Source: Bolinopsis microptera | Taxonomy: Eukaryota > Ctenophora > Tentaculata > Lobata > Bolinopsidae | Direction: 5' to 3' | Length of the DNA: 64,000 nucleotides | NCBI RefSeq assembly: GCF_026151205.1 | Contig: NC_087079.1 | Location: 15,314,445-15,378,444 of the forward strand | Shown here: positions 4,201-43,700 of the stretch, one piece after another | Layout: the number at the start of each line of letters is the position of its first letter | Numbering within the stretch: position 1 is the stretch's first letter | Position numbers and translations under genes: made by a program | The notes under the pieces: model-generated | Databases searched by the model: none | What the model was told of the DNA's origin: nothing | The model's input: only the letters and a program-made list of their open reading frames with translations

Positions 4201-7200
4201 TATTAATAATATCCCATACATCAATGGGCTAATCATTCATTAAAATTTGGTACGGGATTTGAAATCGAAAGAAGATTCGATAATCAATTTTAATTAATTG
4301 TGTGACCAAGTGAAGATTAATTAAGGGTCACTTGGTCACTACTAGGCTTTTATTTACATACTGGGCCTACAGTAGTATAATCCTGGATCAAAACCTGTAG
4401 ATAAAATGTCGGATTTATCACCAATGTGTTAAATAATGGGACATCCAGAAATGTTACACTATGGGATAAAAATGACAAAGGCCTCCTTAACAACTGCCTG
4501 TGTGGAACCATTACGTAAATATACAGACTAGAACGAATTACGGTTTCGGATATGTACACTGTCCTTATATAAGTATATAACAACGTTTCTAGTAACAAAC
4601 TTCTCTTGCATCTAATAACCGTTTAAAATTAACGATTTGGTTCCATTTGAGTGCAGTCAAATAAAAAGTACTTCCAACTTACATCCGAACCGTCGTTCCA
4701 CTGAAAAGTGGCGTCCTGAACCAACTTTAGCTTGCCAGTGGAGTCCGTCTCAAAGATAGGGACCAAGTAGATGGTGCCGTCCACAACTTGAGCCTGAAAC
4801 ACTTCCAAAGAGGTCTTCCTGTCTGCATTAGCATCAAACTTCACTTGTCCTGATGCTCCCTCAAATAGGTCCAGTGTTGATATTACCTAAAATATCAAAA
4901 TTTAGTGAAGATTAAGAAGAAGTTTAGTTATCATGTTTGCGATCCGCACCTGAGAAGTAGCTATCATCCGTATAAAGACTGAAAGTTTAACTTGCGAAAT
5001 TATTTTCTTCAAAACAGAATGAAATCATTGAAATCAATCGCACGCCCATTTAGTAATTTTTGTGCACATGATGAGATAATGAATTCATACATTAAACTTC
5101 CTGCTCTACTGCTTCACAAACCTGAGCCATATTTGTTCCGTTCTTAATGAGTTTCTTAGCACCGGCCTCTTTTACTGCCAGCTCTTGCGAATCGTTCTCT
5201 AAGTAGTAATCATCTTTGATCTTTTTGGCTGCCATAGCGTAAGTCAGTAGTGAGTCGTACAGAGTCGCACTGTACACGTCTAACTGAGGAATTAGTAAAG
5301 TAATTAATCTTGCTAATTTGAATTTCAACACTTGCACCCTCGGTACCCTTGGTTTCGAAAGCCCTTCAAATAATACCTTATGAAATACCTTACCCTGATT
5401 CAGAAAATAAGCTAGTGAAGATTCTACCGGACAAACTTACAACGATGTCGGGTTTTCCTGTGATCTTGCGAACGTTATTAGTCAGATCTTGGAACATGGT
5501 GTTGTTGGGATTCTTCTGACTGAGCGATAGTAAGCCCCTGGTGTACTTTTGTGTGTCTGGAAGGAAGGCATAGTGATTAATCAAACAAAAGTTTAATCAA
5601 ATAAAGTATACCGACGGCTGATTTTAGTTTTGACACAATGGTAACCAGACCTATTAGTTTATATAACTGTGTGTTTGCCCATCATTAACGTTATTAAAAT
5701 ATAAGCATAAAATATTTGTCAACTCTCCAAATATTCTCTGCATGTCCATACCTAAATCTGAATTTTTACGATATCATCGATTTTATAATTTATTCGAAAG
5801 CAATGATTCCAGGGCAAATCTCCAACCTACCATTCTTAACCGTGGCTGTGGTCACTTCAAGTGAGATAAAAGCGCTCTCTTTAAAAGGGAAAGATGGTGT
5901 AGAGTGAGCGGTCTTCAAGAAAAGGATAACATCTGAGTCGTAAGCCAGGATCATGAACACTGAAAATAAAAATAAAATGAATTAAGGTGTTTATATCCCG
6001 CTCTCATATTATGATAAACAAACCAACACAAGGAAGGTTGCTAAACATACCAGAGTGGCATGCTGTGAAAGCTGTGCACAAATATCACATACAAGAACGT
6101 GGCTGGATTTACAGTCTTTCTCAGCTCTATAGATGAGTATGAAATACATATTTATGTCATCGGAAATCAGATTGAAGTTGATGTGGTAACTATGGTAACT
6201 ATGGTAACTGTGGTAACTATGGTAACTATAGTCACTATGGTAACTATGGTAACTATGGTAACTATAGTCACTATGGTAACTATGGTCCTACCTCTGACTT
6301 CATCCTTGCATTCTTTAAGAATATCTTTAGCAGTAGCCTCCTTCTCAGTAGCATCTGCAGTGTCGTCGAAATACCACACTTTGTAACACACGACTTTGAA
6401 TCCGTCCGGCATTCTGTCGTTGGTTTCACCCTCAAAGGCATTTTCTAATGTCTTCTTCAATTCGGCAGCAGCTTCCTGTGCAACAAGTTATGAATGTGGG
6501 TTTCTATTTTATAGGCTGAGCTCTTTATTAATAAAGTTACAGACATACTTCCGTATCACTTCTATGGTTCAAGAACCCTTTATAATTGTCGAGCCTATTT
6601 ACTAAAGATTCCAAATTTCAACCGTAAAAGGATTCAGTATTAAGGAAACATTGAAACACTTGAAGTTTTTAAAGAAATAAATCTTATAAAACTCCACCTC
6701 ATACAGGTTGATATTTCTGTAGATAATCCCAATCCGTTCCCAGCCCATGTGATCGACTATAGTAACCATGGGGCCACCGTTGGCACCGACACTGCTCACA
6801 GTTCGAGCGAATGTAGAGTACTCCTTTTTGTTACTCAGACTGTCCAGCGTGCAAGCATACGAGATCTGAAGTTTAGATGGGATTTTAAATATTTAATTAC
6901 CCAAAAATGACAGATAGTTACTGCAATGCCGACCATCTATTAATAGCTGGTCGGCATTGTAACTTTGTAGTTGCCCGCAAAATACTTGACAAATTTAAAC
7001 AATCCATAAATGTAGTAACAGTCTTAAACATGAGTTTAATTTGAATTAACGTACCATAGGTATATCGAAGCCTTCTTTGGAGGCGATGTAAGCAGTGTTC
7101 TTACAGACTTCAGAGCACCCGGGTCCAATGAAACCGTCCACCCTGGCACTGAAAACATTTAGATTAATATCAACAAAACATAACACATCTTTCGATTGAA

Positions 7201-7581
7201 AATGTTACAACCCGAAGCAAACAAACAGTTTAGACTTATTTAGATTTGAATCCCCCCGACGGTCCACATAACGGACTATTTCCGTCCTTCCATAACAACT
7301 TACTCCACTCCATCGCTCTGATCCACGTCCACCACCCTACGAGTACTCTGTATCAGCCCCGTCTTGGTGTTACACTTTGCGTGAATGTACTCTAACTCTA
7401 TCTTTATCCCCTGGTCCCTCAAAATGTTATCTCTGGCGTACTCGAGCGTCTCATTTGCCTTTATCGGCCACACTTGGTTTTCTTCCCCGACTTCTAGGAT
7501 AGCCCCGACTTTGAAGGATAGTTCAGAGAGGAGGGGAGAAGGGAGGAGGAGTAGGAGGGTGGAGAGGAGTGTGCACATCAT
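68..7581 (-). CDS. Receptor guanylyl cyclase (natriuretic-peptide-receptor-like), C-terminus off window
   Basis: Single-pass membrane receptor that would make cGMP from GTP on ligand binding. Exons, in transcript order: 7581-7304, 7148-7055, 6865-6698, 6475-6292, 5959-5831, 5556-5441, 5283-5122, 4886-4683, 3850-3621, 3425-3257, 3084-2905, 2779-2608, 2445-2287, 2158-1987, 1251-1111, 960-837, 667-424, 258-68. All are bounded by AG/GT and keep one reading frame, giving about 1,039 residues. That is close to the usual length of the family, and the final exon is missing to the left. Domain order: signal peptide, ANF-receptor ectodomain, transmembrane helix, kinase-homology domain, coiled-coil linker, class III cyclase. 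The start is the first Met of [19 protein letters not shown]; the second Met is equally possible. Family assignment is firm from many motifs. The ligand and exact orthologue are unknown. Confidence 0.95.
1987..3425 (-). CDS. Receptor guanylyl cyclase exons 10-14: kinase-homology (pseudokinase) domain
   Basis: Residues about 523-806. Recognisable pieces are [90 protein letters not shown] and a final [15 protein letters not shown]. The HRD catalytic aspartate is absent (the loop reads HGRLKSCNC) and the DFG position reads DYG. This is the normal receptor-cyclase pattern of an ATP-binding but inactive kinase. Exon 14 is extended to 1987 rather than the earlier possible donor at 2004, because that gives a GTAAGA donor and restores phase 2 into exon 15. 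Confidence 0.93.
3621..3850 (-). CDS. Receptor guanylyl cyclase exon 9: juxtamembrane cysteines and transmembrane helix
   Basis: Residues about 446-522. The exon opens with a short cysteine-containing extracellular stalk ([16 protein letters not shown]). About 24 hydrophobic residues follow ([20 protein letters not shown]), then a basic stop-transfer stretch ([11 protein letters not shown]) and the motif [10 protein letters not shown]. This WxI segment leads into the kinase-homology domain in receptor cyclases. It joins the previous exon in phase 0 and the next in phase 2. Confidence 0.93.
4683..7581 (-). CDS. Receptor guanylyl cyclase exons 1-8: signal peptide and ligand-binding ectodomain
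   Basis: Residues 1 to about 445. A hydrophobic leader is followed by an ANF-receptor (periplasmic-binding-protein-like) fold. Family landmarks include [11 protein letters not shown] in exon 2, SYACT and FARTVSS then GWERIGIIY in exon 3, ILAYDSDV in exon 5, [15 protein letters not shown] and NGTNMAQ in exon 7, and [19 protein letters not shown] in exon 8. The exon 1 donor is placed at 7304 because phase 2 there restores the frame into exon 2. The intron between exons 4 and 5 carries a 9-bp minisatellite. Cysteines in exons 1-3 probably form the disulphides usual in this ectodomain (inferred from the family). Confidence 0.93.
6184..6288. repeat. 9-bp minisatellite (GGTAACTAT)n in a receptor cyclase intron
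   Basis: About eleven copies of GGTAACTAT with single-base variants (GGTAACTGT, AGTCACTAT). It lies inside the intron between receptor exons 4 and 5 (minus strand) and runs to within a few bases of the exon 4 donor at 6292. Open frames through it are repeat artefacts. Confidence 0.93.
6924..6959. repeat. 12-bp-arm hairpin in a receptor cyclase intron
   Basis: CAATGCCGACCA (6924-6935) and its exact complement TGGTCGGCATTG (6948-6959) flank a 12-base loop. After a 2-base bulge the pairing continues for four more pairs (GTTA/TAAC). It lies in the intron between exons 2 and 3. No function is evident. Confidence 0.8.
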
Positions 7582-7649
7582 GGTTTCATGGTGGGTGGTA
7601 GGGAGATGGTTCTTGCTGCATAATACACCCTACACTCATGTGGAACTTT

Positions 7650-9510
7650 ATCAATATGGGATAACTAGAACAATGTTTCTAAATATTTTTTACTCAGTTA
7701 TGTAACAGTAGCAGTTTATAAAATTTCCTCCAGATGTGGTAGTATAGAAGAGAAAAAAAAGGCCATGTCAGAAAAACAACCCATCAAAACTAAGAATCAA
7801 ACTAGATAAATAGCGCGTCAACCCGCTTAAGAAGGTTTACATAAGAAGATGCTTGGTGAATACTGCATAGGAAACTATAGAAAAGAACATATTTAAGGAG
7901 TAAGAAAATGCAAGCTAATTATGCAATCCGGAAAAAGGTGTTACCAACCAACTGGTCACCAATTAGAATAGTCCATTAGACTATTTCCCAGCAGACGGCT
8001 CGTCCGTGTGTCAGACGATGAGAGAGATTAACAGCAATTAAAACAAGTTCTTTAAATCCTTATATTATGTAAACAAGATTTTGTGAAAGTTAAAAGAAAA
8101 AAGAAAGGTCACAGACGGTCACATGAGGTCTGAAAACAATTTAAGCATGCTAATTACCCGTTCTAAATGCTTATGAAAATACTTCATAAATCTTTAAACT
8201 CTGTTTTAACTGCTTCAAAGACCAATCGGAGCAGACTCCAAATGATTCGGTTGTTAATGTTATTGGATAAAAGTAATCATCATCAACGTATATCCTTGGA
8301 TACGTGGTTCACCAGCATGAAGAAAACGTGATAAAATCTTAACTCTGTATGTTTTCAATGCAAACAGGATTTGTAACAAGCTAATAGAAGAATGTCCGGA
8401 TACGTTTTGCCACTTGGAGTTAGCAAGAGTTGCTATAAAGTACCAGCTCGTCTAAACAAAAGTCTTAAACGTTTTAAACTTCCTAACCGCAACCAAAACA
8501 TTTCCAATGATGGCCCCTTGTGGCAGAATCGTAAGCTGTGACCTGCCTTGAATTGCTCCAGAGACCTATCACAAGGATTATAACGATATTCAACATATAC
8601 ATAATAATATGATATATAATATATGCGTGTCAATAGAAGTAGAACCAATCATCAGCAAGAGGGTCATGCAGATTCGACAATAAAGCGTTTATCTAAAGAC
8701 GTTCTCGGGAAGCTGCCGCCAGTTCTGTGTGCACTTACACTAGTGTGGTTGTTAATCAAGGTCAGATTTGAAACGAACGAAGAAATAATAAAAATAAATA
8801 AATGGATTTTACTTTGGTTCCTCAAAGTTCATTTTCCGGTAAATTGTTCGAATATTAAAGTACCTAACAAAGTAACAACGAAGTATTTAATGATCTTAAA
8901 ATGTATTTATTTATTAAAATAATTATATAAATAATTGAATAGATATTATACTGGTTCCACGAAGTCCAATTCAGTCGGGTTTATTGTCTGGGAATTTCCT
9001 TGAAAGTTAATTGACAGTAACGTATTTAATTATTTAGAAATTTACTAATTTATTATTTATTAAAGTCCTATTCAGTCGAGTTTATACTTCATGGCTGTCA
9101 ACAAAAAGGCTGACAACCCAGAACGCGTCCAACAGGTTCAACACTAGTGCTCAAGGGAATAATAAATAGTTTAATTTTTACGAAAAAGCCGCTAGTACGC
9201 TGATAATTCCTTCCAGCACAGAAATTAAAGTAAACGGTAAAGTAAGATCGCACCTATGCTAATATTTGGAGCACAAAGGGTGCAGATGTGACTTTTTTCG
9301 GGTTTTGTTGACACTTGTAAAGAAATTGTGGAGTTCCGCAAATCTTTTCGACTCCATAATAAGATAATAGGAATCCATTTATTATTGCTCGATAAATTCC
9401 GTTCGAGCAAATATTACGTGTTTGGAGTCGAGTGTTGGAAAATAATAGTGACTATATCAGCATCACAACAAATAGAAACAATGATGATTTAAAGATCTAT
9501 AAACTATCTA
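7650..9510. other. Non-coding stretch upstream of the receptor cyclase first exon
   Basis: No exon, repeat array or RNA gene recognised. It should contain the promoter and 5' UTR of the minus-strand receptor cyclase, but I see no definable core element. A 25-base motif around CAGTCGGGTTTATTG (about 8962) recurs imperfectly at about 9062 (CAGTCGAGTTTATAC). Confidence 0.5.
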
Positions 9511-9511
9511 T

Positions 9512-9841
9512 ACTGGGGTTATTTCTAATGAGGCACTCTATGCTCGTTGTTATGTCACTCCCTTGTCTGTGAGAGTCTCTAAGTTTCGATGGAGAATGTT
9601 AGGACATATCTTAAGAGGACAGGAAGACTCACCAGCATACACCTCTATGTTATTTGCTATAAATTCTGATATTTTTATGGAAGGGAGACGGGGTAGACCA
9701 TGTTTAAACTTATTAGATGTTATTAGAAAAGACTTGACTAGTAGAAATCTTGATATTAGACTTAAGAATTTGACTGATTTCGAAGACCTTAGATTTTTAG
9801 CTTTAGATAGGGAGGAGTGGAAGAAGTTAGAGGATGGTTGA
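9512..9841 (+). mobile_element. LINE reverse-transcriptase C-terminal remnant
   Basis: The reading frame ends in a pattern typical of the extreme C-terminus of LINE ORF2 proteins. It reads NEALYARCYVTPLSVRVSKF, then RWRMLGHILRGQED, a glycine-rich GRRGRPCLNLLDVIRKDL and a final FLALDREEWKKLEDG before a stop at 9839-9841. The frame can be followed upstream to about 9512 without a start codon. No RT catalytic core is present, so this is a 5'-truncated copy. A T-rich stretch follows the stop. Confidence 0.75.
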
Positions 9842-9849
9842 TGTTTTTG

Positions 9850-12540
9850 TTTTCTTTTTTATGCGTTTTGATATCTATAAGGTGCCTAGGATGCTCTTTT
9901 AAAGAGATATTTCGTACTTTGAAAGATTTACTACTATAAACATAAGGTGCCCGGCACGATGTTCCCGATTCTACCTCGAATAAAAAACCCATAAAAGGCA
10001 AGTTTATTCGAGATATTCCAGTTGAAAACTTCAATGTCAGTAAATTTTTGAACAGCCTCCATAGTGGTAGTAATAGTAGTAATAATAGTCCATCGCAACA
10101 AAGTTAAATCGCTTATTAACTCCCCTTAAATATGGGAGCGGCCAACTGAAACTGATACTTCCAAATTGAGGTTCAGAATTACAGCCAGGTAGTTATTGAA
10201 TTCAATGGCAGTGACGATGAAACTTAAATAATTCCTTTCTAGTGAATCTGAAGTCATCATAGTAACTCGATTGAAGTAATGTAAATTTGTATTAACGATT
10301 CAATAAATTGTATGGACATGTTGAAAATCTGCAACCTGAACGGCGAACAAAGACATAAAAATCTTGATATCTCTTCAGTCTTCAGTTGAAATCAAATTGG
10401 GCTAATGGCCATGTGAACCATCGAACTTTTCACCATTCAGCTCTAAAAACAATTAAATTAATTTTCACTGCAAATCAACAAAAAGGTTGTGATCCAGGTT
10501 TTAAACAAAAGCGTCTTTAGTCCTGAGAAGTGAGGCACATCTACCACCCATAAACGAAAACAATTAAATTAATGAATATAAATTTAAAACAAAAGGTTAA
10601 GTCAATTGTTTGGACGAGATCAAATTGAACTGATGACAATGGAAGCCATCGAACCAATTAAAATTCAGGGTATTTTCTAAGAATAATTTCATAAAACATA
10701 AAACTATAATGAATGTGAACAAAAAGCTTCTGCTGAATCAAAAATGCCGTCTTCGTTTGAAGTGAACCAACCTTAATCAAAACACAATATAAGCAAACAA
10801 CTAGAAATCGACAGTGAGACGACAGATTTTATCTAATATCTTCTTGAACGGTTTAAATACAATCTGAAGCAAATATCTATTCCTGCTAAGCCATTATACT
10901 TGACAAAGATCAAGTTTTTTTAAGCAGGAGGAAGTTTTGCTTCTATTATTCCTAAATCAAATTAAAAGCGAATGATAATGCACCAAAAGCCATAATTAAA
11001 GCTTTAAAGGTAAGACCACAGAATATCAAATACATATTGTACTGCAAGGCCTCAAGGACTGTTCCAAATCAGCTTAGTTCACAGAATTTCAAGTACAGAA
11101 GGTGTTGGAAAGACAGCCTCAGCTCAGGACGACTTAGTTCACATAACATGATGAACAGTACGTGCTGCTCCTGCTCAGGACGGACCACTGTCCACCAGGT
11201 ACCTGAACAATACAGAGTAATCATCATCACCACCTCAACACAATGCTCATTAGCACTTCATCCTCAGTAAATACGATAAGCTTCCTAGGATACATATCTT
11301 AGGATACGTTTCTTGTTATCCAGCGCGAGAGGAGGAAACACTGTGAGGAGAGCTGGAAAGATGCCGTATTTAAGGAAATCTGGCGAACAGAGATAACGTG
11401 ATCATAATTAGAACTAATAGTATATTTGATACCGATTTCATAATCATTAATCACCTTCCAAACTCGGCATAATTCTTCAATTATTATTAGATCCGTTCAT
11501 ACCAGGCCCGACAGTCGTTTAAATCGCAACAAAATCTACCGAAAAACGAGGGAACATTTTTGAATTAAATTGATGAGATCTCGAGAATGACAATGCCCAA
11601 AGGCTTGAACTCTAATTACTAATCCATCAACTAAATGCTCGGGTTGGTGTTAATTCAACCGGAAAAATCTTGACAAAGCCAGAAAATGATCGCGCTGAGC
11701 GTCACTGTAAAATAAGTATGAACTTTCTTGGTACTGTCAGCGAAATATGGCATATTTCTAAGCACCAGGTTAAACTGAAAAGGTTCAAGTTTCAAAACAA
11801 TGACACAAACTCAGCTCGGAGAACAGTAGTAAAACTTGCAGCTGTGTCTGGACTAATACAGTAGTATTAACATTAGTATTTCTGACATACCAAGAAGAAA
11901 ATCGACTGAACATATCGCGAAGCTCCACCAAAACGCAACTATCTCCAACAAATAGCAGAAGAGCAGCTGCCGGCTCTTGACAGTATCGCATAACAATAAT
12001 CGCAGTAAAAGACTGACGAGCTCGGGCACACTCGTACAGCCCGAACAGTGCTTTAACAGAGGATTGTGATGTGTCACGTGATGCCCATATAAGGAGTTGT
12101 ATCACGTGATCTACCCTCACTACAGAGGATTAGACAGCATGCTAGGAGCTGCAAACCTCCCGGTACAAAGCCATATTAGGGCTACATTTCTGTTATACCG
12201 AGCTATATAATACATCAGTAATCTCAATCTTCTTACTAGATATGTACTTATATATATGAAGATATCTCCGTGTAGATCTGAAGTTTTGGGTGCAAATAGT
12301 TGTTCTCAAAGGATCCGATAAATTACAGGTGTCGGAGCAGGGTAATTATGTAGACAGAGCAGAGTATACCAGCGCAGATAATCGGGAGGTTACCAGATAT
12401 AAAAGTGGGTAAATACTTAACAAGCCGGGATGTTGACAGTTGTAGTTGGAGTAACCACGCGATTAATACCACCACAAGACTGCAAAATCTTGTTACTATA
12501 CTAGTATATATATCGGGCAAGAAACCGTGATGAGAGGTGG
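9850..12540. other. Non-coding stretch, no gene recognised
   Basis: AT-rich, with only short unconvincing frames. Diverged internal repeats occur: AAAACAATTAAATTAAT at about 10447 and 10557, and ATCAAATTG at about 10390 and 10618. Around 12075-12115, two CACGTGAT motifs flank CATATAAGGAG. This is promoter-like but has no gene attached. Confidence 0.5.
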
Positions 12541-12562
12541 ACCGGTGTGCACCTGGGTGACA

Positions 12563-12857
12563 CCCTGCCTGGTGATAGTAGAACTGTTAGTAATCTTCCT
12601 TTTTAAAGAAATCCTGCCTGGTGATAGTAGAACTGTTAGTAATCTTCCTTTTAAAAGAAATCCTGCATAGTAGAACTGTTAGTATAAATCTTCCTTTTTA
12701 AAGAAATCCTGCCTGGTGATAGTAGAACTGTTAGTGATCTTCCTTTTAAAGAAATCCTGCCTGGTGATAGTAGAACTGTTAGTGATCTTCCTTTTAAAGA
12801 AATCCTGCCTGGTGATAGTAGAACTGTTAGTGATCTTCCTTTTAAAAGAAATCCTGC
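12563..12857. repeat. 48-49 bp minisatellite, six units
   Basis: The unit begins CCTGCCTGGTGATAGTAGAA and ends CTTCCTTTTAAAGAAAT. One internal unit (about 12660-12705) has lost the GGTGA segment. The 48-bp period is a multiple of three, so the reverse strand stays open and yields a false repetitive protein. Confidence 0.93.
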
Positions 12858-12885
12858 ATGGCAATACAAGAACCTAATGCGTTTG

Positions 12886-14160
12886 TAAGGTCTCGTGACT
12901 CGTACCTATTGAACCCAAATTTCAAGCTAGATAAGACAATCTTTAACCGTCAATTAAGTGGTTTTATGTGCACAAATGTCAAATAACCATGCAGAGCGGT
13001 TATCATATTATGGAGCAGGCTGCTTATCATGTTGATTAAACTTGTTCAGTCAAATCAATCATTTCCATACAATCTACTCATTATAGATAAGAATAAAGGC
13101 GGACAAGGTAAAGAAAGGACTATTAAGACGATCTAGAAGTAAAAGTAAACTATTCAGTTTGTTTTTGTCGGTAACTTGCCGGGTTTTACTGTAAGTGTAA
13201 CTGTGGAGAAATATCAGAAATAGAAGCACAATTGAAAGATCTTTCATGCTTAGTCTCGATAATTTCACCGAACATCATAATAAACTTCTAATAATGATAA
13301 TGGAGTAAGATCTGTGGACATTTCAATGGCTCATAGTACATCTAGGAAAAGGTAAGTCGGTTATTTCAAAAAGAATTAAAAAAGCGTAGAAACTTGAAAC
13401 TACGAACGAAAGAAACCCGGCTATTTTCCAATAAGATATCTCCCAATTCCTTTACTTGATAGTTGACGTGTTGACGTGGGGAGCTATTTGGTGAACGACT
13501 CTCTAACTGGTCGGTAGGGGGAAAAATGTCTAGCAAAATTGTGACTCATTCTGTCACCAGCAGTTTCACGCGGTAGTTCAACCCCTCAGCAAGTTCGGAC
13601 ACTATAACTTTAAAAGCAATATAGCGAAGCGTCTACGACTAATAACTTAATAATACTACACGACGCATGTTCAGGACAACTCTTGTGTCATGTGCTCCAT
13701 ACTGGAGAATGTGGGTTTATTAGTATTTTAGTTGGACTATGTGCAGATAAAGACAGCCAATTGCTCAGTGCAGGTTGCAGTCAGGAAAAGTGGAAATGCT
13801 ATAAATTAATAATATTCAGATCTCCAATAAATCAATGAACGGTAATTCCCAGGATAAAAATAATCACGGATGAAATAGACGTACGATTTTACAAATCGCT
13901 CTGATTAAACCGATCAATCGAACAAATGAGCGCCCGGTAATCACAATCGATATGCTAATTATAATCATGAGAAATTGTGAAGAAAATCCGCATCAATCAG
14001 AGTGAAATTCCTATCTATACTTCTCAGAATTTGACGAAAGCATTCAAATAAGGTCACGAAATAGTTGGCTAGCATTACTACTACAGTACTACAATTCTAC
14101 AATCTACATACAACAAGCGTCTAGCTTGGTTGATTCATTAATCCAAAATGTGGGACGTGG
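12886..14160. repeat. Segmental tandem duplication, copy A
   Basis: Collinear with 14183-14965. Shared blocks in order: TATTGAACCCAAATTTCAAG (12917), TCTCGATAATTTCACCGA (13253), AAAGGTAAGTCGGTTATTTC (13349), GGCTATTTTCCAAT (13420), CTTCTCAGAATTTGA (14017) and ACATACAACAAGCGTCTAGC (14106). Copy A is longer by unshared inserts. No coding potential was seen in either copy. Confidence 0.85.
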
Positions 14161-14161
14161 T

Positions 14162-14199
14162 CGAGACCGTATAAACCCTGCTGCGTTTATACGGTCTCG
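14162..14199. repeat. 14-bp perfect hairpin at the duplication junction
   Basis: CGAGACCGTATAAA (14162-14175) pairs exactly with TTTATACGGTCTCG (14186-14199) across a 10-base loop. The right arm is the start of duplication copy B. The left arm closes the spacer after copy A. Confidence 0.88.
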
Positions 14200-14965
14200 T
14201 GCATATTGAACCCAAATTTCAAGTATAACACGAAATTGGTCTAGAGAAGACAACCTTTTACTTTTGATTAAGTAGTTTGGCGTGCAGAAATAACCAGAGC
14301 GATTATTTTATCATGGGGCTGATTATTATCTCTTAATCAAACTTGTTCAACTTCAGTCAGAACTCAGATCATTCCTTCCTGTTTCATCTAATTATAAATT
14401 GACAGATTTTTCATGCTTACTCTCGATAATTTCACCGATGATCATATTACTTATAAAATTTCATTGGCCGGAAAACTGGAAAAGGTAAGTCGGTTATTTC
14501 AAAAAGCATTAGGAGCTCTAGAAATAAAACTGCGAGAATCGAAAGAACTCCGGCTATTTTCCAATGAAATGTCTCCCAATTCCTTTATTTGATAGTTTAC
14601 GTGTTGATGTTTGTAGCTATTTGGTCAACGACCATATAACTCATGGTCGGTTAAAGAAAAAAAGAAGGAAAGAATAAAAAATATAAATAAAAAAGAGCAT
14701 ATTTTAGGCAAAAGTTTCACTTATTCTGTCAACAGTTTCACCCGGAAGTTCAATTCATCAACAATCGATCGACAATCGATGTGCTAGTGCTACTTTTCAT
14801 TATGGGACATATTGAAGAAAATCAACATCAATCAGAGTAAAATGCCCATCTATACTTCTCAGAATTTGATAAAAGCATTCAAATAAGTAAGTCACAAAAT
14901 ATTTACCTGGTATTACTACTACAATTCTACATACAACAAGCGTCTAGCTTGTTGATTAATTAATC
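14183..14965. repeat. Segmental tandem duplication, copy B
   Basis: Second, diverged copy of 12886-14160 in the same orientation. It contains ATATTGAACCCAAATTTCAA (14203), CTCTCGATAATTTCACCGAT (14420), AAAGGTAAGTCGGTTATTTC (14482), CTTCTCAGAATTTGA (14854) and ACATACAACAAGCGTCTAGC (14931). Many substitutions and indels indicate an old duplication. Confidence 0.85.
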
Positions 14966-17900
14966 TAGCACGGGTATATACTGTTCAAAACAGCAAATTC
15001 ACGATATGATAACTATAAGAGCGATCACATTTAACATGAGCTGGAGCCTGAAAAACAACTTTTGGCTTTACCATCATGACCGTATTAACTCCTCAAGGTA
15101 TCCACCATGGATAAGAAAATGAATTGGTTATTTCTTCTGGTATCATGTCGAGAAATTTGAGTATATATATTCCACCGTCTCAGATCTCTATTTTAATCGG
15201 TTAACCGTTATAAAATGTCTAAATCCTTATAACTTTGTAAACGTCATTACATCATTGTTATATGGAAGGGATTAACTCAATAAGGTGTGGTTTTAGTTTA
15301 GGGTAAGGTTCAAGGATTGGTTATCTGGCTTAATCCCTAAGAATCAAGGGATAGAATTAAGTTCAGGGTTATAGATCATGTGGGTTGTTTAAGAGTTTAT
15401 GTGACGTGGAGCTGTGGGTACTGGCCAGATTTTTGTGAAATAGGACGAGAGGGATCTATTTCTTGTATTGGTGACTAAATCAAACACTAAAAGTGACGAG
15501 AGTGCATTTATCACACACAATACGCAAGAATACGCTGACTTCCGTGTATAGTAGTAGCACAAGAAAGCAAAGAATGAACAGGGTTGAACTTGCTCGGAAA
15601 TGAAGTGAAGCAATCACCCCACTGACAAAATAAGAAGCTGTCCTGACTAAAGTTTTGCTTGACGAATGTTTCGTGATCGCTGTGATAGCACGTGATGTAA
15701 TCCGCCTGTATAGTGACTGTTTCGTTGTCTTCAAGCCCGGGGTACAAAGATGACAAATATGGCAGAGGACCTATGGGCCAGGGGTACGAGGATGACAAAT
15801 ATGGTAGAGACTAGAGGGCCTATGGAATCAATAAGCTTGTCGCTTGAGAGGGTGAAATATAATTACATAATTGGATTAATTATCCTTGATAAAGCAAGGG
15901 TTCTGATATGATAGAATTTATCCAAACAACTGATCACGTCTCGTAGTACTCGACAGTGGTACGTGAGTTACCGAATAGTACGTGCTGGAATGACGGGAAT
16001 GTCGGGAATGTCATTGGTTACCATGGTGACCCCAAACTTCAACCGTTTTTTCCACAATTGCAGCAGACTTTTGGTCTCTGATTTTTGCTCTACTATTTAA
16101 ATGTTAACGTGACAACAAAACCGACAGCAATTACAGGGGAAATTCCTGATATGAGCGGAATTTCCAACAAAGCCCGTATTCCTGTAAAATTAAAACCGAA
16201 TAATTGACGTCTACTTTATACGTCTGCTAAATACTTTTATACCTGTGCTTTAAAATTGTACAGAACAAGGTGTTCAACCTCAAGGGAAAAGTATGGCGGC
16301 TGACTGCTTGTCTTTCGCCTTTACCAGCAGGTCCAAGAATACTCAATTATTGAGGAGGCGACACAATAAGCATTCATTTTAAATTAGATTTAGTAATATT
16401 AGAGGAAATTCCTTGTGCCAGAGGAATTTTCATCAAAGTTAATAATGTTGGAATTAGCTATAAGTGAGATAAACTATTCCTTAGTTATAAACGCTTTGCA
16501 GCAGGATGCCACACCATTGGGTATCTCTGGTAGAAAATAAGGTGGTAAGCAGAATACTTGACCAGAACCAAGTCTAGAAGGAAGATATTACTGTTATTAT
16601 CTATATATATAATCGAGATTCTTATTTGTAATTCATCAATGATCAGCAACTTTGTAGCCAAGTACAGACCATTTGTCTCATTAACAGGTAGTGCCCACTC
16701 TTCTCAGGTTATTGCTCGCGACATGTAAACTGCTTACTATCTTTAGTCCCGAATGAACACTGATATCACAGATATTAAAGAACATGGAACAAGTGTTTTT
16801 AGAAGTTGGAGAGCATCAAGTAAGCTTATTTAGCGTCCACGAGATTTACTGGTCTCCTGATGAAGACGCCCGAAATGTTATAGAAAACACGACAACTGCT
16901 GCACTGAATCTAGATAGTATAATATGTAAAGAAGTAAGTATAAGTACTCATAGCACTGGTTCAAACTACTTGAGCGAGGTGGGGCCTCCATTTCTATATT
17001 TTCGTTGGACCTGGTAGTGGCACAGCCCCTCAAAATTTATAATTAAAGTTCATTTTAATTTAATTCAAATTAATTATCATTATCCCCTAATCACGAATTT
17101 ACAACTTATTTTTTCGATTACGAATAATAGGACATATTATGAGAAGATTTTTTTGGGTTAAAAATCTCAAATTAAGAACTCTGCTCAAGAACAGAAAGGA
17201 AACGACCCCCAGGCCCCAGATCGGAACAAAATTTGTTGCAAACATTTATATACGGTAATGTTTTAACCACGATTTCGGCTAACAAAAAGTATTTTCACAA
17301 GGGAAGGTACAATATACGTAAAATGAAACTATAGATTCGGAATTATTTGACAATTAAAAAAAAACAAATTTCTATTATGATACTGTGCGTGGATAACAAT
17401 ATGATAAACTTCAAAGAAGTTGAATACCGGAAAATAGCATATAGATTTCTCGACAGCTTTTACTCTTCCCACATATCCCGTCTGAATAATGCGGAAAGGA
17501 AAATTAGACTAATTCGATTAAAACGTTTTCTGTCACAAAAAACAGGTTATTGGGATACAATAAGGCAATTTATATTAGTCGTTCTCTGTAAATTTACTGA
17601 GATGAAAAATGTTGCTCGCGCACAATTCAACCTATTCCATTGAGGGTTACAATTATACCTTTGTTCTAACGAAGTCTACTTCAGTACTTAGCCTCTCCCG
17701 ACGTTTTATGTCAGGTTACAAAACATGAAGACTTGATCTGTCTGGACATCTAATCATAAATTGAATCAAGATTTGACGGCAAGTACGGCAGATATAATTG
17801 TCAAATTGTGGCGTCAAAGCAAGGTCGTCAGTATAGCATATGAGTTACTTCTACAAAATCCATGAGTATGACCACCTTATATTAGTTGTTATGGACGTTA

Positions 17901-19590
17901 AAAATGTTTTTACAAAAAATATCGTGAAAAAGTTTTCTCAAATTTGTCCTTTTTAAACGACAAAAAACTATGAATTACTGACGATATACTCTACAGATTC
18001 CAATGTATGTATAACTATTATCAACTGTACAAATACAATTGTTAGCCGAAAAAAAGTTTAAAGACTAAAGCAAGAAAAAACACATTTGAGCAAAGAAGCA
18101 ATTCTCCAGAAGCTATCGTGGTGATGAAACTTAACTTATTTGATCATTGCTGTGTTCCATGAAATATCCAGCTTGCTCAATATTTCATGGAACACTTCAT
18201 GAAATAACATTTAATGGTCATCTACAGAGTTTAGTGAAACAAGCAGTTACAAGACACTAAAGTCTACAAGTACAAAGTACAGTCTCAGGCTGGCGCGTGA
18301 TATCCAATCTCACCGTCAAAATAAAGGTCTGCATTAAAGCATTGAAGCGTCATACTGATAAGCGATGTAAAACGTGAGAGCCGAGGTGTACTAGTGATAT
18401 GGGTACAAAAGAAAATTAATCAAAACAATATATAAAGGATCGGGTGAAGACCACTGAAAACTGGGGTAGGATAGTGATTGATTAGGTGTAACCATGGTAA
18501 CCACTAGAGCCAGTGTCGATTAGACTGCCACTAAAAAGCCCCCAATAGACAATAAACATGATGCAGAGCACCGTGAAAAGTTGGCAATCAAAGTTATTAT
18601 CTGTGGAGAACTCATTAAATGTACGGTTTATAGAGGAGCCCCCAGGTAACGTACAGACTGCGTTCAATCAGTACCACATGATCGTTACCACGCGTGTAAG
18701 AGCAGGCTCAATCACTTCATACCCTCCCAACTGACCAATAAGAAGCAACAGCACTATCTGATAGCCAATCAGAAACGTCATATTCTCGCTTCTACCGGCT
18801 GGTCTAGACTGAGGACCGCTCGTACGGTGTCAGAGGAAGATGAGGTATATCACCATCTGGAGCTAGAGCTGCACTAACAAGCTACAAGCAGGCGGGGAAT
18901 CTGTTCTGATTAATTATTTTGTGGTTCTAGATACCGGCTATGTAACAACGGCAGTCCAGGTGCAGTGCCAGATGTGTTACTGATTAGCATTAATTAATTA
19001 ATAAGTTTTAATCAGCATTTATATTCGTTCATTAGTAATTAGTATCATTAAGTGATCAGTCAGTAGTACTAGTAATCAATCTTGTTAAACTAATTTAGTT
19101 CAAAATGTCATGACAGCGGTAAAACATTCAACGTTCCTAAAAAATGGTAAGGCTTTGATAAAAAAAATTGATCTAAATTTATCAACTAAATTGTAAAAAC
19201 AGTTAAAATTTACATTGAAATTAATGTTGTAGTTTAAAGTACAGGATATAAATTAAAACACAAGTGTTCAAGAACACTAGTTACTCAGGACCAGAAATAT
19301 GCAAAATATGCAGCTAACGTTGAACCAGAAGTGGCCGACGAATAAAAGTATAATTTAGGGTATAATTATAAAAACCAATTACGTCTCGGCGGTCTACTAA
19401 ACTCCAGTAGTCAGTACCGCCATTGTTTTCAGTTCGCATCGATTCGTGGGATTCTCTTAATATCTCACCGTTCAATTTATAACCACTACAATAGCTGGCA
19501 GGTATTTATACTCCTCTCTTGCTCTTTCGCAGCAGTTTAGTGCTTATACGATATGCAGTAAAACATCAAAGGTAATGCTAGGCTTTTTGA
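14966..19590. other. Non-coding stretch, no gene recognised
   Basis: No convincing exon. It contains a twofold repeat of about 41 bp around GGGTACAAAGATGACAAATA (15741 and 15782), a 15-bp hairpin at 18153, and a short CCAAT-rich segment at 18735-18770 (GACCAATAAG, AGCCAATCAG). Two frames (16784-17017 and 17347-17643) match nothing I know and show no codon or motif support. Confidence 0.5.
18153..18194. repeat. 15-bp perfect hairpin
   Basis: TGTTCCATGAAATAT (18153-18167) and its exact complement ATATTTCATGGAACA (18180-18194) flank a 12-base loop. CTTCATGAAATAAC follows directly, a partial third copy of the arm. Confidence 0.85.
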
Positions 19591-19595
19591 ATCCG

Positions 19596-19897
19596 AGGTT
19601 ATGAAACACTCAGACTCAGAGGTTATGAAACACTCAGATTCTCAGAGGTTATGAAACACTCAGAGGTTATGAAACACTCAGAGGTTATGAAACACTCAGA
19701 GGTTATGAAACACTCAGAGGTTATGAAACACTCAGAGGTTATGAAACACTCAGAGGTTATGAAACACTCAGAGGTTATGAAACACTCAGAGGTTATGAAA
19801 CACTCAGAGGTTATGAAACTCTCAGAGGTTATGAAACACCCAGAGGTTATGAAACCCCCAGAGGTTATGAAACACCCAGGTCCCAGAGGTTACATGA
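19596..19897. repeat. 18-bp minisatellite (GAGGTTATGAAACACTCA)n
   Basis: About 15 head-to-tail copies, nearly identical in the centre and degenerating at both ends (CACCCA, CCCCCA variants). Because 18 is a multiple of three, the plus strand reads as repeated MKHSEV. There is no support for expression. Confidence 0.95.
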
Positions 19898-19899
19898 AG

Positions 19900-20780
19900 C
19901 AATCAGCATTCAACCTCTTCAGAGTTCATGCATGGGTCCCCTCCCAACTAAGTAAATCAAACCATTATAAACTGATAACAGATAACAGTGCGGATTGACC
20001 TGCTTCTAGCAACAACTGTACCGAATGACAAAATTTCTGAGTTAACAAGTAGAATTATTTAGCATTAAGCTAAAACCAGCGGGTAGAATTACGTAGCATC
20101 ATACTAAAACCAGACGAAAACTTGCGTGTTTTGCCACTATAACACGTGACTCGTATTTTTAACACGTGACTCGTAACACGTGACTTTTAACAGTACGTGA
20201 CTTTTAACAGTACGTGACTTTTAACACGTGCCTTGATGTCACCCCACATGAGCAGCACTGCTCATTTAGTTTTACTCGGGTCACGTTTCGTAAGGGAGGT
20301 CTTAGGCTTAAAAGAACAGAGAAATATGACTAACTGCATGCAACTAACTCCCTGAAGATCTGAGAGTTGCCGCGGTCCTCCTACAGGTATGACGGATTAT
20401 GATGGCCCTTGCCTGATAAATTGGATAAGCTATGTTGTAAGATGTTGATTTATAGATGTAGGTTTATAAGATTGTAGCCACAAAATGTTGTATACTAGGA
20501 TCAAAGCTGATCGCAAGTGTACAATATGGAAATTTACCTGAATACAGTCACTCCATGTAAATAGTCGTGTAATATCGCGAAGGACAGAGATATGCCGTCC
20601 GTAGAAAGATGTAAGAAATTACAACTGACAAGAAATGCGGTCGCATGTTTTTTGTATGTGGACGACCGCTTAATTTCCTGATCCATTGTATTATATTAGT
20701 TATAATGAAAACCATTTCTTTTGATAATATCTAAGATATCTCAAATATGATTGTTAAAATAGTTCTAAAGAATAAAAAAT
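19900..20780. other. Non-coding stretch between minisatellite and orphan receptor exons
   Basis: Apart from the CACGTGAC repeats, no exon or element was recognised. I looked here for the next ectodomain exon of the minus-strand receptor (a GPGC-type motif) and did not find it. Confidence 0.5.
20145..20235. repeat. CACGTGAC-containing short repeats
   Basis: Five or six copies of (A)ACACGTGACT or GTACGTGACTTTTAACA at 15-18 bp spacing. Several carry an intact palindromic CACGTG E-box. This could be a bHLH or bZIP binding cluster or simply a short minisatellite. It sits about 550 bp downstream, in the minus-strand sense, of the second receptor-type exon at 20788. Confidence 0.75.
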
Positions 20781-20787
20781 GTCTAAC

Positions 20788-21327
20788 CTTTCCATCATAT
20801 CAAGTTCTTTAACCACAGCAATGATGCCTGGTTTGGAGGAACACTCATCATCAAGGTACTTTACTGTTAGGTTGAGCTCCCCGGATTCGAACACTTCCTC
20901 TCTGATATAGTCTACTGCTGTTTGTGTAATGACCCTGAGAAGATAGAAGTTTGTTGGTTTGTGATGCGTTTTAGGGAGGAGTTGATCAGGTTATATACCC
21001 CCAGGGACCAAGTAATTGAAAAAAATACAGTAGTGAATAGTACGATTAAAAAATTCTTTTCTCCTTTCAATTTACGACTACTGAAATGACAATTCGACGA
21101 AGGATGCCTCAGAAGTCTCAAAATATCTGAAATAAGAGATGAAATACGGTCAAGAAAATATGTGAAAGGAATCATTTAACTCATTCGTACCTTTGGTGGG
21201 GAGGCCATTCTCCAAAGTCAGGGAAATTAAACGAAACGAGCACCCCAACTTCGAGCTCGATTGTAGATTGTCGTAAGGGAACTAGTGCTAGTAGAAAGAC
21301 AGCTCTCAGAAGAGGGAATACAGGCAT
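20788..21327 (-). CDS. Two receptor-cyclase-type 5' exons (alternative first exons or start of a second receptor)
   Basis: Exon a (21327-21191) encodes a signal peptide (MPVFPLLRAVFLLALVPLRQ) followed by TIELEVGVLVSFNFPDFGEW. Exon b (20934-20788) continues ITQTAVDYIREEVFESGELN, then LTVKYLDDECSSKPGIIAVV and KELDMME. This matches the first about 90 residues of an ANF-receptor ectodomain and is collinear with exon 1 of the cyclase at 7304-7581 ([39 protein letters not shown]). Splice signals are good: GTACGA donor, TTCTCAG acceptor, GTTAGA donor. Exon b ends in phase 2, exactly as cyclase exon 1 does, so it could splice in frame to the exon at 7148. No other downstream exon was found in the intervening 13 kb. 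A truncated paralogue is the alternative. Confidence 0.82.
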
Positions 21328-21359
21328 AGCAACCCCTTCTTCGTACCTGCACAAGTGAA

Positions 21360-40700: not shown

Positions 40701-43700
40701 TATTAACATTTAATTCACTTCAATTCACGAAAATACAGTGCACAATTTTCGGAAAAGAAAGGGTAAAATGGATATGTATATTTCTTTCATTAAAATTTTT
40801 GATTGTTTCTGAATAGACTCAGTGAAGACAGATTTTAATGGAAATAAATGGCTGAATAATGTATCGACATTTCTACGTCATACTCATATTCTCAAATTAT
40901 TTGTTATATAGTAGTGTTGAAAGTATCTTACCTTTAAAAAGTTATTTTGTCGAATCTGAGAGTTTGCCACACAGAAATTCACCAACACATATCAGTCTGT
41001 TAACTAACTCCTGAATATTAAGGAGTAACTAACTCCTGAATATTAAGGAGTAACTGTTAACTAACTCCTGAATATTAAGGAGTCTGTTAACTAACTCCTG
41101 AATATTAAGGAGTCTGTTAACTAACTCCTGAATATTAAGGAGTAACTAACTCCTGAATATTAAGGTGTCTGTTAACTAACTCCTGAATATTAAGGAGTCT
41201 GTTAACTAACTCCTGAATATTAAGGAGTAACTGTTAACTAACTCCTGAATATTAAGGAGTAACTGTTAACTAACTCCTGAATATTAAGGAGTACTGTTAA
41301 CTAACTCCTGAATATTAAGGAGTCTGTTAACTAACTCCTGAATATTAAGGAGTCTGTTAACTAACTCCTGAATATTAAGGAGTCTGTTAACTAACTCCTG
41401 AATATTAAGGAGTAACTGTTAACTAACTCCTGAATATTAAGGAGTAACTGTTAACTAACTCCTGAATATTAAGGAGTAACTAACTCCTGAATATTAATAA
41501 TATTATAAAGGAGTGACGATAGACCAGCCGAGTGTGGCGTACTTGTACCAGGGTCAGAAGAAGGAAGTTAAGTGCATCCTTCACGGTCTCTTTAGTAACA
41601 ACCCCACTGCTAAGTGGGTGGGGGAGGACAGCAAGGGTATTGGAACTGAGATCACTAAAGATGTGACAGGTTAGTTTGAATTTAACTCTATTTTCATTCG
41701 ATTAACACTTGTTATATTTTATCACATATTCATCCGGAAAAAACACTTTCGTTCTCCCATTTCATTACTCTAATCCTAATCATCAAAAATCTTTGATTGT
41801 ATCTCAAAACTTACTTTATGTTACTTAACAACTAACCCCGTCAGAGACCACGGACACTACCCAAGGAACTAAAACCACGACCCTGACACTGACAGTCGGA
41901 GACGAGGACATGAAGTACTCCTGCAAGTACACTGCTCCTGATGGGTTCAGTGTTGAGGACTACATCGTCCATCAGACTGCAGGTGGGTCTTCATCCTGTT
42001 CTATGTGGCAGTTTTAATGTTAGCAAAGAGACCAAACCAACTATATTTACCTCAATTCTCTAGTCTTTTCAGACGCAGAATCTTCTACACTCTCTGACTT
42101 CTTCTGATGTCTGGGACTTACGACCCCAGATGTAGCTTTCAACGACGTTTTAAGGGCCCAACGTTCAGCTGTTCATCAGGGTTAAACTGGGCAGGGTCTT
42201 TCGGCCAGCTGCCAGTTGTCACTCCAGGTCTTGTTGTAGCGACTAAGCCAGATAGTGTAGGAACCTTTCAGGGACACCACCGCTGTTGTGTTAAGTGCCC
42301 TCTTCTTCTTTGCCCGGGTGATGTTAAGGAAGTTGAAAATTCGGGGTAATGTGTGGTGGTAGAATCCACGACATCCAACTTCTACTGTAAAGAGATATCC
42401 TTCCCAGCCTGCGGTCTCGATCTCCACCATTAGCTCTTCGTATCTCTTCTCTTTCCGGGATCTCTGGTCCTCAAAGTTCTCCTCGTTTCCACAGGTCAGC
42501 TCTATCAGGATGACTTTCCTGAGTGTGTTAGAGTATATTACCACATCAGGTCTGAGAGCTGTGTTGACAATATGTTGGGGGAATTGTCTTGTCCTTTCGT
42601 CCTCATCAAACACTAGTTTCCAGTCGTTACCTTCCTCTAGAAGATGAGGTTCTTCTGTAAGCCGTACTTCGGGTTTCCTGTAGGTTCCTTTTCCGGATAC
42701 GAACTTCCTCCACTCTCTCTTTACTTCTGTCTTTGGGGTAGCACTGTTTATCTCCCTCAGCTTCTCTGCAATTGGTTGCACGATTACCCTGAGCACCTGA
42801 TCATGTCTCCAATTATATCTTCCTTGTTTAAGCGACACTGGGCAACACGTTAGAATGTGCTTTAGGTTGCACTGCTGACGCCCACAAAGGGGACAGTTGT
42901 TCGTGGAGCTGTAGTTCCAAAGCTGGAGGTTGCTAGGTGTACTTGCAACGTCGTGGATGGCATTTAGGTGGAACTTTGTCAGCTCGGGGCTCAAGGTATA
43001 CAGCAGGCTTTGCCAGCCAGTGTCTAGCTGCATGGTGTTCTCCCAGGTTAGAAACTTTCCTTGGACTCTCTTATCGTACAGAGTTTGAAGGAGTTCCTCT
43101 TCTTTCAGAGACTTAATTATCTCCACCAGTTGCTCCTTTTTGTTCTTCTTCCTCCTCTGATCACCGAATCCAATACCGGCTCCTTCCCTGGTCTGCACGT
43201 AGCCAATCAGTTCTTTGAAGTAGAGGTCTCTCTCCCTATTAGTCAGCTCCTTGGTGTAGTCCCATCTCTTCTTGTCTCTGTTGGTGTTTTCTCTGTACTC
43301 GAAAACCTCCCTCACTTTAGGGTCAACCGATGTCTTCAGCATATAGGCCTTGGACACCTGTAGACATTTGTACAGGTTGGAGATCTGCTTTAACGATAGT
43401 CCAAAGTGGTCTTTTGATCTGTACAGCACACTATTCGATATGGAAGTAGTAACTCCAAGCCATTTCTTCAAGTATCTGGTACAAAGAGCCTCTAGTGTCT
43501 GGATGAATGATACTGGGAGGTTGTATATCATAATATTCCACTGTACTTTGCTAGTTAGCATGTGGTTGTAGATCCAGCACTTGCTTGGTCCAGAGAGCTC
43601 CGCCATGTCTACTTTTTCCAGCTGGCCTGAAAGTTGAGTGGTGATTAGCTCTCTCGTCTCATCTTGGCCCAGGTTGACGTAAATCCAGTGACCAAGGAAC

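Follow-up and report, generated by a model that had tools for sequence, protein, structure and literature searches.

The locus and its features

The window, by which we mean the whole stretch of 64,000 nucleotides analysed here (G000:C8:15314445-15378444, in a genome of 264.65 Mb), carries a receptor guanylate cyclase gene on its minus strand and, upstream on the same strand, two exons that encode another version of the start of a ligand-binding domain. The genome looks like that of a ctenophore: a 155-residue ion-channel piece from it matches ML032222a iGluR (9.7e-33; ML is the Mnemiopsis gene prefix) and 4zdm, a Pleurobrachia protein (1.4e-28), ahead of a kainate-type receptor (5.2e-13). The features on which our argument depends are these.

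Exons E3-E18, 6865-68, minus strand: remaining ectodomain, putative membrane helix, kinase-homology and guanylate cyclase domains
Exon E2, 7148-7055, minus strand: presumed common acceptor exon (acceptor score 7.0, donor score 8.5)
Exon E1, 7581-7304, minus strand: candidate alternative single first exon, with putative signal peptide, N-lobe and a phase-2 donor
Presumed A2-E2 intron, 7149-20787, minus strand: 13,639 bp, inside which E1 would lie
Repeat fragment, 9511-9938, plus strand: 428 bp, with 39 scored copies of 207 first-look candidates at 98-100% identity
Exon A2, 20934-20788, minus strand: N-lobe helix and Cys-loop, with a phase-2 donor (AAG/GTTAGA)
Exon A1, 21327-21191, minus strand: start codon, putative signal peptide and first N-lobe strand of the ANF-receptor domain, with the donor AAG/GTACGA
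3' splice site before A1, 21345-21346 (first bases after it), minus strand: 5'UTR intron or spliced-leader acceptor

Exons E1-E18 give the cyclase 18 exons in the window and a stop-free frame of 1039 residues; E18 spans 258-68, and the gene extends beyond the window edge. Pfam finds in this frame ANF_receptor, then PF07714 (5.5e-32) and then PF00211 (6.1e-65); a kinase-homology domain and a guanylate cyclase domain follow one another in a single frame, and the ANF-receptor ectodomain is recognised with the body alone (PF01094, 128.2 bits). Hydrophobic stretches were read by eye in A1, E1 and E9. The gene resembles NPR-A and NPR-B, of which NPR-C is an ectodomain relative, in having an ANF-receptor domain, a kinase-homology domain and a cyclase, and probably also in its putative leader and one putative membrane stretch. 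It differs from NPR-type genes in that two intact candidate N-terminal exon sets stand before one body, and its ectodomain similarity to NPR-C is remote (31.8-39.0 bits). The intron after E4, at about 6180-6290, opens with a GTTACCATA-type simple tandem array.

E1 is an intron-less first exon of 278 nt (92 codons plus 2 nt). Within 140 nt 5' of its ATG no acceptor scores above 3.4; farther 5' there are acceptors of 4.9 (7727), 4.6 (7789) and 7.6 (7874), the last of which can be chance because 38 AG sites in a 20-kb control score 7 or more. E1 may belong to a longer 5' exon.

Two intact exons upstream of the cyclase

The original prediction held that two minus-strand exons encode a signal peptide and the start of an ANF-receptor lobe, and our analysis bears this out, with 94 open codons and good splice sites. 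A1 and A2 together comprise 284 nt (94 codons plus 2 nt), stop-free on translation and separated by an intron of 256 nt, and their product has a hydrophobic leader, a first strand, a helix and a Cys-loop stretch (secondary structure by analogy). There are no disabling changes in them: 0 stops, 0 frame shifts and 0 lost splice sites. The A1 donor (9.7), the A2 acceptor (12.0) and the A2 donor (8.9) score inside the ranges of the cyclase's own sites (18 donors, 3.9-11.0; 17 acceptors, 6.5-13.8), which are favoured as controls because the matrices were built from these same sites. An acceptor scoring 10.0 lies 19 nt 5' of the A1 start codon, and in a 20-kb control 2 AG sites score 10 or more.

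Coding potential was scored by a dicodon model, for which 24 long frames (51,894 nt) served as training set. A2 has a coding LLR of 17.6; of 6,482 overlapping stop-free background windows 0.66% score as high, under a model that is not sharp, the cyclase's own E12 and E15 scoring -14.8 and -1.1. By itself the score of A1 is undistinctive (10.3% of background windows match it), perhaps because A1 is mostly leader. Against a profile built from six other receptor lobes the open frame of A2 scores 11.7 bits (E 0.051), and the combined score of A2 in an exon scan is 38.5, that of E2 being 30.3. Apart from a chance-level match (E 1.58), no second copy of the A1-A2 lobe was found genome-wide.

A2 and E1 exit in the same phase, 2, and either would read on in frame from the E2 acceptor at 7148; the two first-exon sets are intact, both have a start codon of their own, and their donors fit one and the same acceptor. 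As foreseen, the phase-2 donor of A2 would continue into E2. The shared phase might also be read as a pointer to this particular partner. Phase 2 at the border between the lobe and the E2-like exon is, however, common to three of three relatives (L005, L006 and L007, borders read by eye), and is therefore a family trait that says little about which body A2 joins, so that we rejected it as a pointer. Left out of this count were L039, whose border we could not place, the two C2 genes, which are uninterrupted there, and the loci L008 and L040. L008 resembles a 7tm_3 receptor (7tm_3 matches lie nearby on the same strand), and no receptor lobe was found at L040.

The gap between A2 and E2

To which body, then, might A2 lead? 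The window, including the 13.6-kb gap, contains no N runs, and an assembly gap as explanation was rejected for that reason. The tblastn check suggested for 7.6-20.8 kb was made with the whole receptor against the window, and it returned only the gene's own exons above chance, the best gap match having an E of 3.3; no second body emerged. Between 7.6 and 20.8 kb there was no kinase, cyclase or ectodomain match above chance by tblastn, Pfam or profile, and no second E2-like match, the start of the exon expected after A2, was found at E <1 in the window besides E2. ANF_receptor and Guanylate_cyc were also sought genome-wide at E <=0.001, in scans that give candidates only and which weak matches can escape; in the window these scans found only the known gene. 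The six-lobe profile, which extends to the start of E2, scored 15.7 bits with the E2 frame and 11.7 bits with A2 when run over the window, and E1 was absent among the matches listed. Lobe profiles gave two weak matches in the gap, one at 12846-12983 on the plus strand (7.3 bits, E 1.2) and one at 17675-17550 on the minus strand (6.7 bits, E 1.8, with the profile that includes the upstream lobe and E1, and 4.9 bits without them).

The exon scan looked on the minus strand for stretches of 60-400 nt that resemble exons. As a control, 16 of the 17 internal cyclase exons were among the matches listed (12 with exact borders, 4 with one border shifted); E12 was missing among them, and the scan is thus not exhaustive. 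The best candidates in the gap were 17028-16967 (62 nt, 19.6), 10247-10159 (89 nt, 17.0) and 18757-18675 (83 nt, 15.5), scores close to that of the lowest control among the matches listed (16.4), and none of the three shows any receptor or ANF likeness by eye. A control stretch at 22-42 kb yielded one unexplained candidate of 33.8 (41654-41549) and otherwise nothing above 14.2. A complete second receptor in the gap was rejected on the combined outcome of tblastn, genome-wide Pfam, the exon scan and the local profile scan.

Do A1 and A2 instead open a separate gene with diverged or short exons of its own in the gap, for example one for a truncated, soluble or cyclase-less binding protein? The three weak exon-like candidates could be read in this way, and A2, if left unspliced, would run to a stop after 11 more codons and give a short secreted peptide. 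The candidates, however, do not look like an ANF domain, the matches of the lobe profiles in the gap have E values of 1.2 and 1.8, and in a secreted half-lobe the loop Cys would lack its presumed partner in E2 (by analogy with the pairing in NPR structures). We regard a separate gene as improbable.

The gap also contains tandem repeats, in addition to the 428-bp fragment at 9511-9938, which is identical or near-identical at no fewer than 39 scored places in the genome and was therefore inserted recently. From the likeness of its peptide, we take this fragment to be probably the tail of a retrotransposon.

Comparison of the two lobes

The upstream exons had been described as collinear with E1 and yet different from it, and so they are: the upstream lobe is encoded in two exons and E1 is one, and the two are identical at 20 of 89 residues (22%), leader included (E 2e-4 among three proteins). 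We compared eight lobes, namely the upstream lobe, E1, those of L005, L006 and L007, C7b (a 44-residue part from L039) and the tandem pair C2a and C2b, and expressed the similarity of each pair as a z score from 300 shuffles. The upstream lobe has z scores of 9.2 with E1, 8.2 with L007, 5.1 with L005 and 2.6 (weak) with L006, and shows no similarity to C7b, C2a or C2b (z <=1.4). E1, against the six other lobes, never rises above 2.1. That E1 was borrowed from the intron-less C2 receptors was rejected (z 0.0 and -0.3).

Other comparisons rank the two lobes in the same order. Against the six-lobe profile the upstream lobe joined to E2 scores 37.6 bits versus 20.3 for E1 joined to E2, and without E2 the scores are 11.9 and 2.9 bits, respectively. 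NPR-C is the closest solved structure to both composites; the alignment with the upstream lobe (39.0 bits) begins at residue 69 and crosses the proposed junction, and that with E1 (31.8 bits) begins at residue 93. The Pfam ANF_receptor score of the body, 128.2 bits, rises to 135.1 with E1 and to 138.8 with the upstream lobe, the difference between the two lobes being small. Neither lobe alone matches any Pfam family at E up to 10, which means that the lobes are recognised solely in context. In a tree of the eight lobes, made without E2 residues, the upstream lobe and E1 pair at 99/98 support with branch lengths of 0 and 2.86 changes per column, and in a repeat with six rows they pair at 97/96 with branches of 0 and 4.94; these trees have 74 columns and very long branches, place their long rows unsurely and are rooted for drawing only.

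The tree, the profile, the NPR-C alignments and the layout in relatives (below) point to the upstream lobe as a conserved front end and to E1 as a diverged one. On this sequence evidence, A1-A2 is probably the canonical, conserved front end and E1 a derived, diverged, intron-less copy. The label "orphan", which the original prediction had given to the upstream exons, is thus probably backwards, since the tree, the profile and the z scores favour A1-A2 as canonical.

If so, is E1 used at all? That A1-A2 is the sole front end in use, with E1 an unused or dying copy, would agree with the outlying position of E1 (z <=2.1 with six lobes, where the upstream lobe reaches 8.2 and 5.1 with two of them) and with its very long branch. 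However, E1 has kept its 92 open codons, its leader, its loop Cys and its donor, and it adds 6.9 bits to the ANF_receptor match; because it is open in spite of its divergence, it was probably under selection to stay open. An unused E1 is the least probable of the alternatives that we consider.

Layout of related receptors

The arrangement of A1, A2 and E2, with the lobe in two exons, is also present in L005 (C7, 6.38 Mb) and L007 (C7, 6.64 Mb), and in L006 the second of two lobe exons is seen. Because these relatives have the lobe intron and E1 lacks it, it is E1 that is unusual in its layout, and the upstream pair conforms to what is usual. The first lobe border is not fully conserved: in L005 it is in phase 2 and splits an Arg codon (WDEGPR/AIA, compared with WPPHQR/VIT in the upstream lobe), and by eye it is in phase 1 in L007 and in phase 0 in L006. 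One lobe each was found at L005, L006, L007 and L039 (about 7 kb upstream were searched, 4 kb for L039), which indicates that a double front end is not a habit of the family. Downstream of the lobe, a cyclase match on the same strand lies at 12 kb in L005, 38 kb in L007 and 6 kb for C7b, and C2a and C2b adjoin a cyclase domain; L006 may not be a cyclase, since there is no cyclase match among the matches listed for it.

Some features of these loci are noted in their own right. At about 7215-7345 of L006, a tandem duplication covers the acceptor and the opening bases of the E2-like exon, so that two near-identical acceptors are present. At 4768-6160 of L039 there is an E2-like stretch of another receptor cyclase (RGWNTALVSTCHVA) in three listed frames. 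The locus G000:C2:8349241-8356889 (L038) consists of two tandem receptor cyclases, one of which runs from ANF domain to cyclase in a single intron-less frame of 1244 residues, which suggests origin as a retrocopy.

The main competitor of a shared body is a tandem duplication of the receptor cyclase, after which deletion of the other exons of one copy would have left A1-A2 as its 5' end, now non-functional or near decay. Several observations agree with such a history: the upstream lobe and E1 are mutually the closest N-lobes among the eight compared, one tandem receptor-cyclase pair exists elsewhere in the genome (C2:8.349-8.357 Mb), mobile-element sequence has recently entered the gap, and a whole-gene duplicate with recent loss of its body predicts the same tree and the same splice phases. 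Yet A1-A2 is intact, and its branch is shorter than that of E1, which is the opposite of decay, and the kinase and cyclase exons, though more conserved, have left no remnant in the gap (tblastn best E 3.3). The explanation would require that the duplication be old, that the copy then stayed under constraint for a long time, and that everything beyond A2 was lost recently and cleanly. We consider it unlikely, and less likely than a shared body.

Discussion

The reading that we prefer, with a probability of about 0.62, is that A1-A2 and E1 are alternative first-exon sets sharing one receptor guanylate cyclase body. One body with two N-lobes was the central claim of the original prediction, and it keeps the support of a gap that lacks body exons, of E2 as the sole match at E <1 and of the better composite scores, and loses that of the splice phase. 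Transcripts begun upstream of A1 would splice A1 to A2, pass over E1, for want of a good 3' splice site near it, and join A2 to E2, and their product would be a receptor with the conserved N-lobe start. Transcripts begun just upstream of E1, near 7.6 kb, would join E1 to E2 and yield the diverged N-lobe start. Both forms would share everything from E2 onward, that is, the rest of the ligand domain, the putative membrane helix, the kinase-homology domain and the cyclase. As to the order of events, we infer that A1-A2 is older and that E1 would have arisen as an intron-less duplicate 155 bp before E2, followed by fast divergence.

What would such an exchange do? In NPR structures helices of the outer lobe take part in the dimer contact, and the lobe forms a wall of the ligand cleft. 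By analogy with those structures, the Cys of A2 or of E1 presumably pairs with the GPGC Cys of E2. The functional consequence would be a choice of ligand or of dimer partner: the part swapped would be the outer-lobe helix and half of the disulfide loop, so that ligand or dimer partner could change with signalling held constant. Should A2 indeed join E2, swapping about 70 residues of the sensor could bring a second specificity for ligand or dimer partner. Receptor diversity would then be gained without duplicating the signalling half, by a route distinct from whole-gene duplication, and two lobes on one and the same body, one conserved and the other evolving fast, would offer a direct means of mapping the residues that determine specificity in comb-jelly receptor cyclases.

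Promoter choice may not be the only switch. In Hormiphora, according to the accessible portion of the report, spliced leaders are carried by at least 56% of mRNAs and many genes are nested in introns (PMC8527503). Such a leader would fit the strong 3' splice site ahead of A1 and, spliced leaders being common in ctenophores, the acceptor at 21346 may be a leader site; cis- versus trans-splicing, besides promoter choice, could decide which lobe is made. E1 would likewise resemble the nested genes described there, in sitting in a long intron parallel to its host (PMC8527503), although it differs from them in sharing downstream exons with the host rather than being a separate gene. The full proposal, one gene with two homologous, exchangeable starts of its ligand domain, one old and conserved and the other fast-diverging, with the start site, or cis versus spliced-leader splicing, as the switch, is one for which we see even odds.

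Precedents exist for parts of this arrangement. In C. elegans, as far as the excerpts of the reports go, the c and d isoforms of gcy-28 differ in expression, and constructs with a gcy-28.c promoter and a 3.0-kb gcy-28.d promoter have been used (PMC9249223, PMC8816384, PMC3842693). Like our locus as we read it, gcy-28 is a receptor cyclase gene for whose isoforms separate promoters have been used (excerpts of PMC9249223 and PMC8816384), and on this showing receptor-cyclase isoforms with separate promoters are not new in kind. At our locus the first exons would be homologous lobes, swapping about 90 residues of the precursor, of which about 70 lie in the ligand domain. Genes with alternative first exons, for example ADGRB1 in the partial account available, put different first exons on a common body; unlike in such genes, both first exons here are homologous versions of the same half-lobe, and the join is a predicted one. 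For Mnemiopsis, the portion of the source available mentions three ANPR-like receptor cyclases (PMC10073611). Among the matches listed in a literature search that covered few subscription journals and sources in part, no paper on homologous alternative N-lobes or alternative first exons of a receptor cyclase appeared.

Mobile elements elsewhere in the window

On the minus strand at 42188-45706, a frame of 1173 residues with a reverse-transcriptase domain (RVT_1, 2.6e-18) belongs to a mobile element. Just 3' of it, at 41549-41654 on the minus strand, is an exon-like stretch with a coding score of 22. The frame at 56874-57530 on the minus strand, for which Pfam gave a sub-threshold match only, is similar to one that starts at 3438 of L040; the two share the pattern Q.EL.ACK.EQLE.L...V.SSV..SVKAEFQS and probably belong to one mobile-element family.
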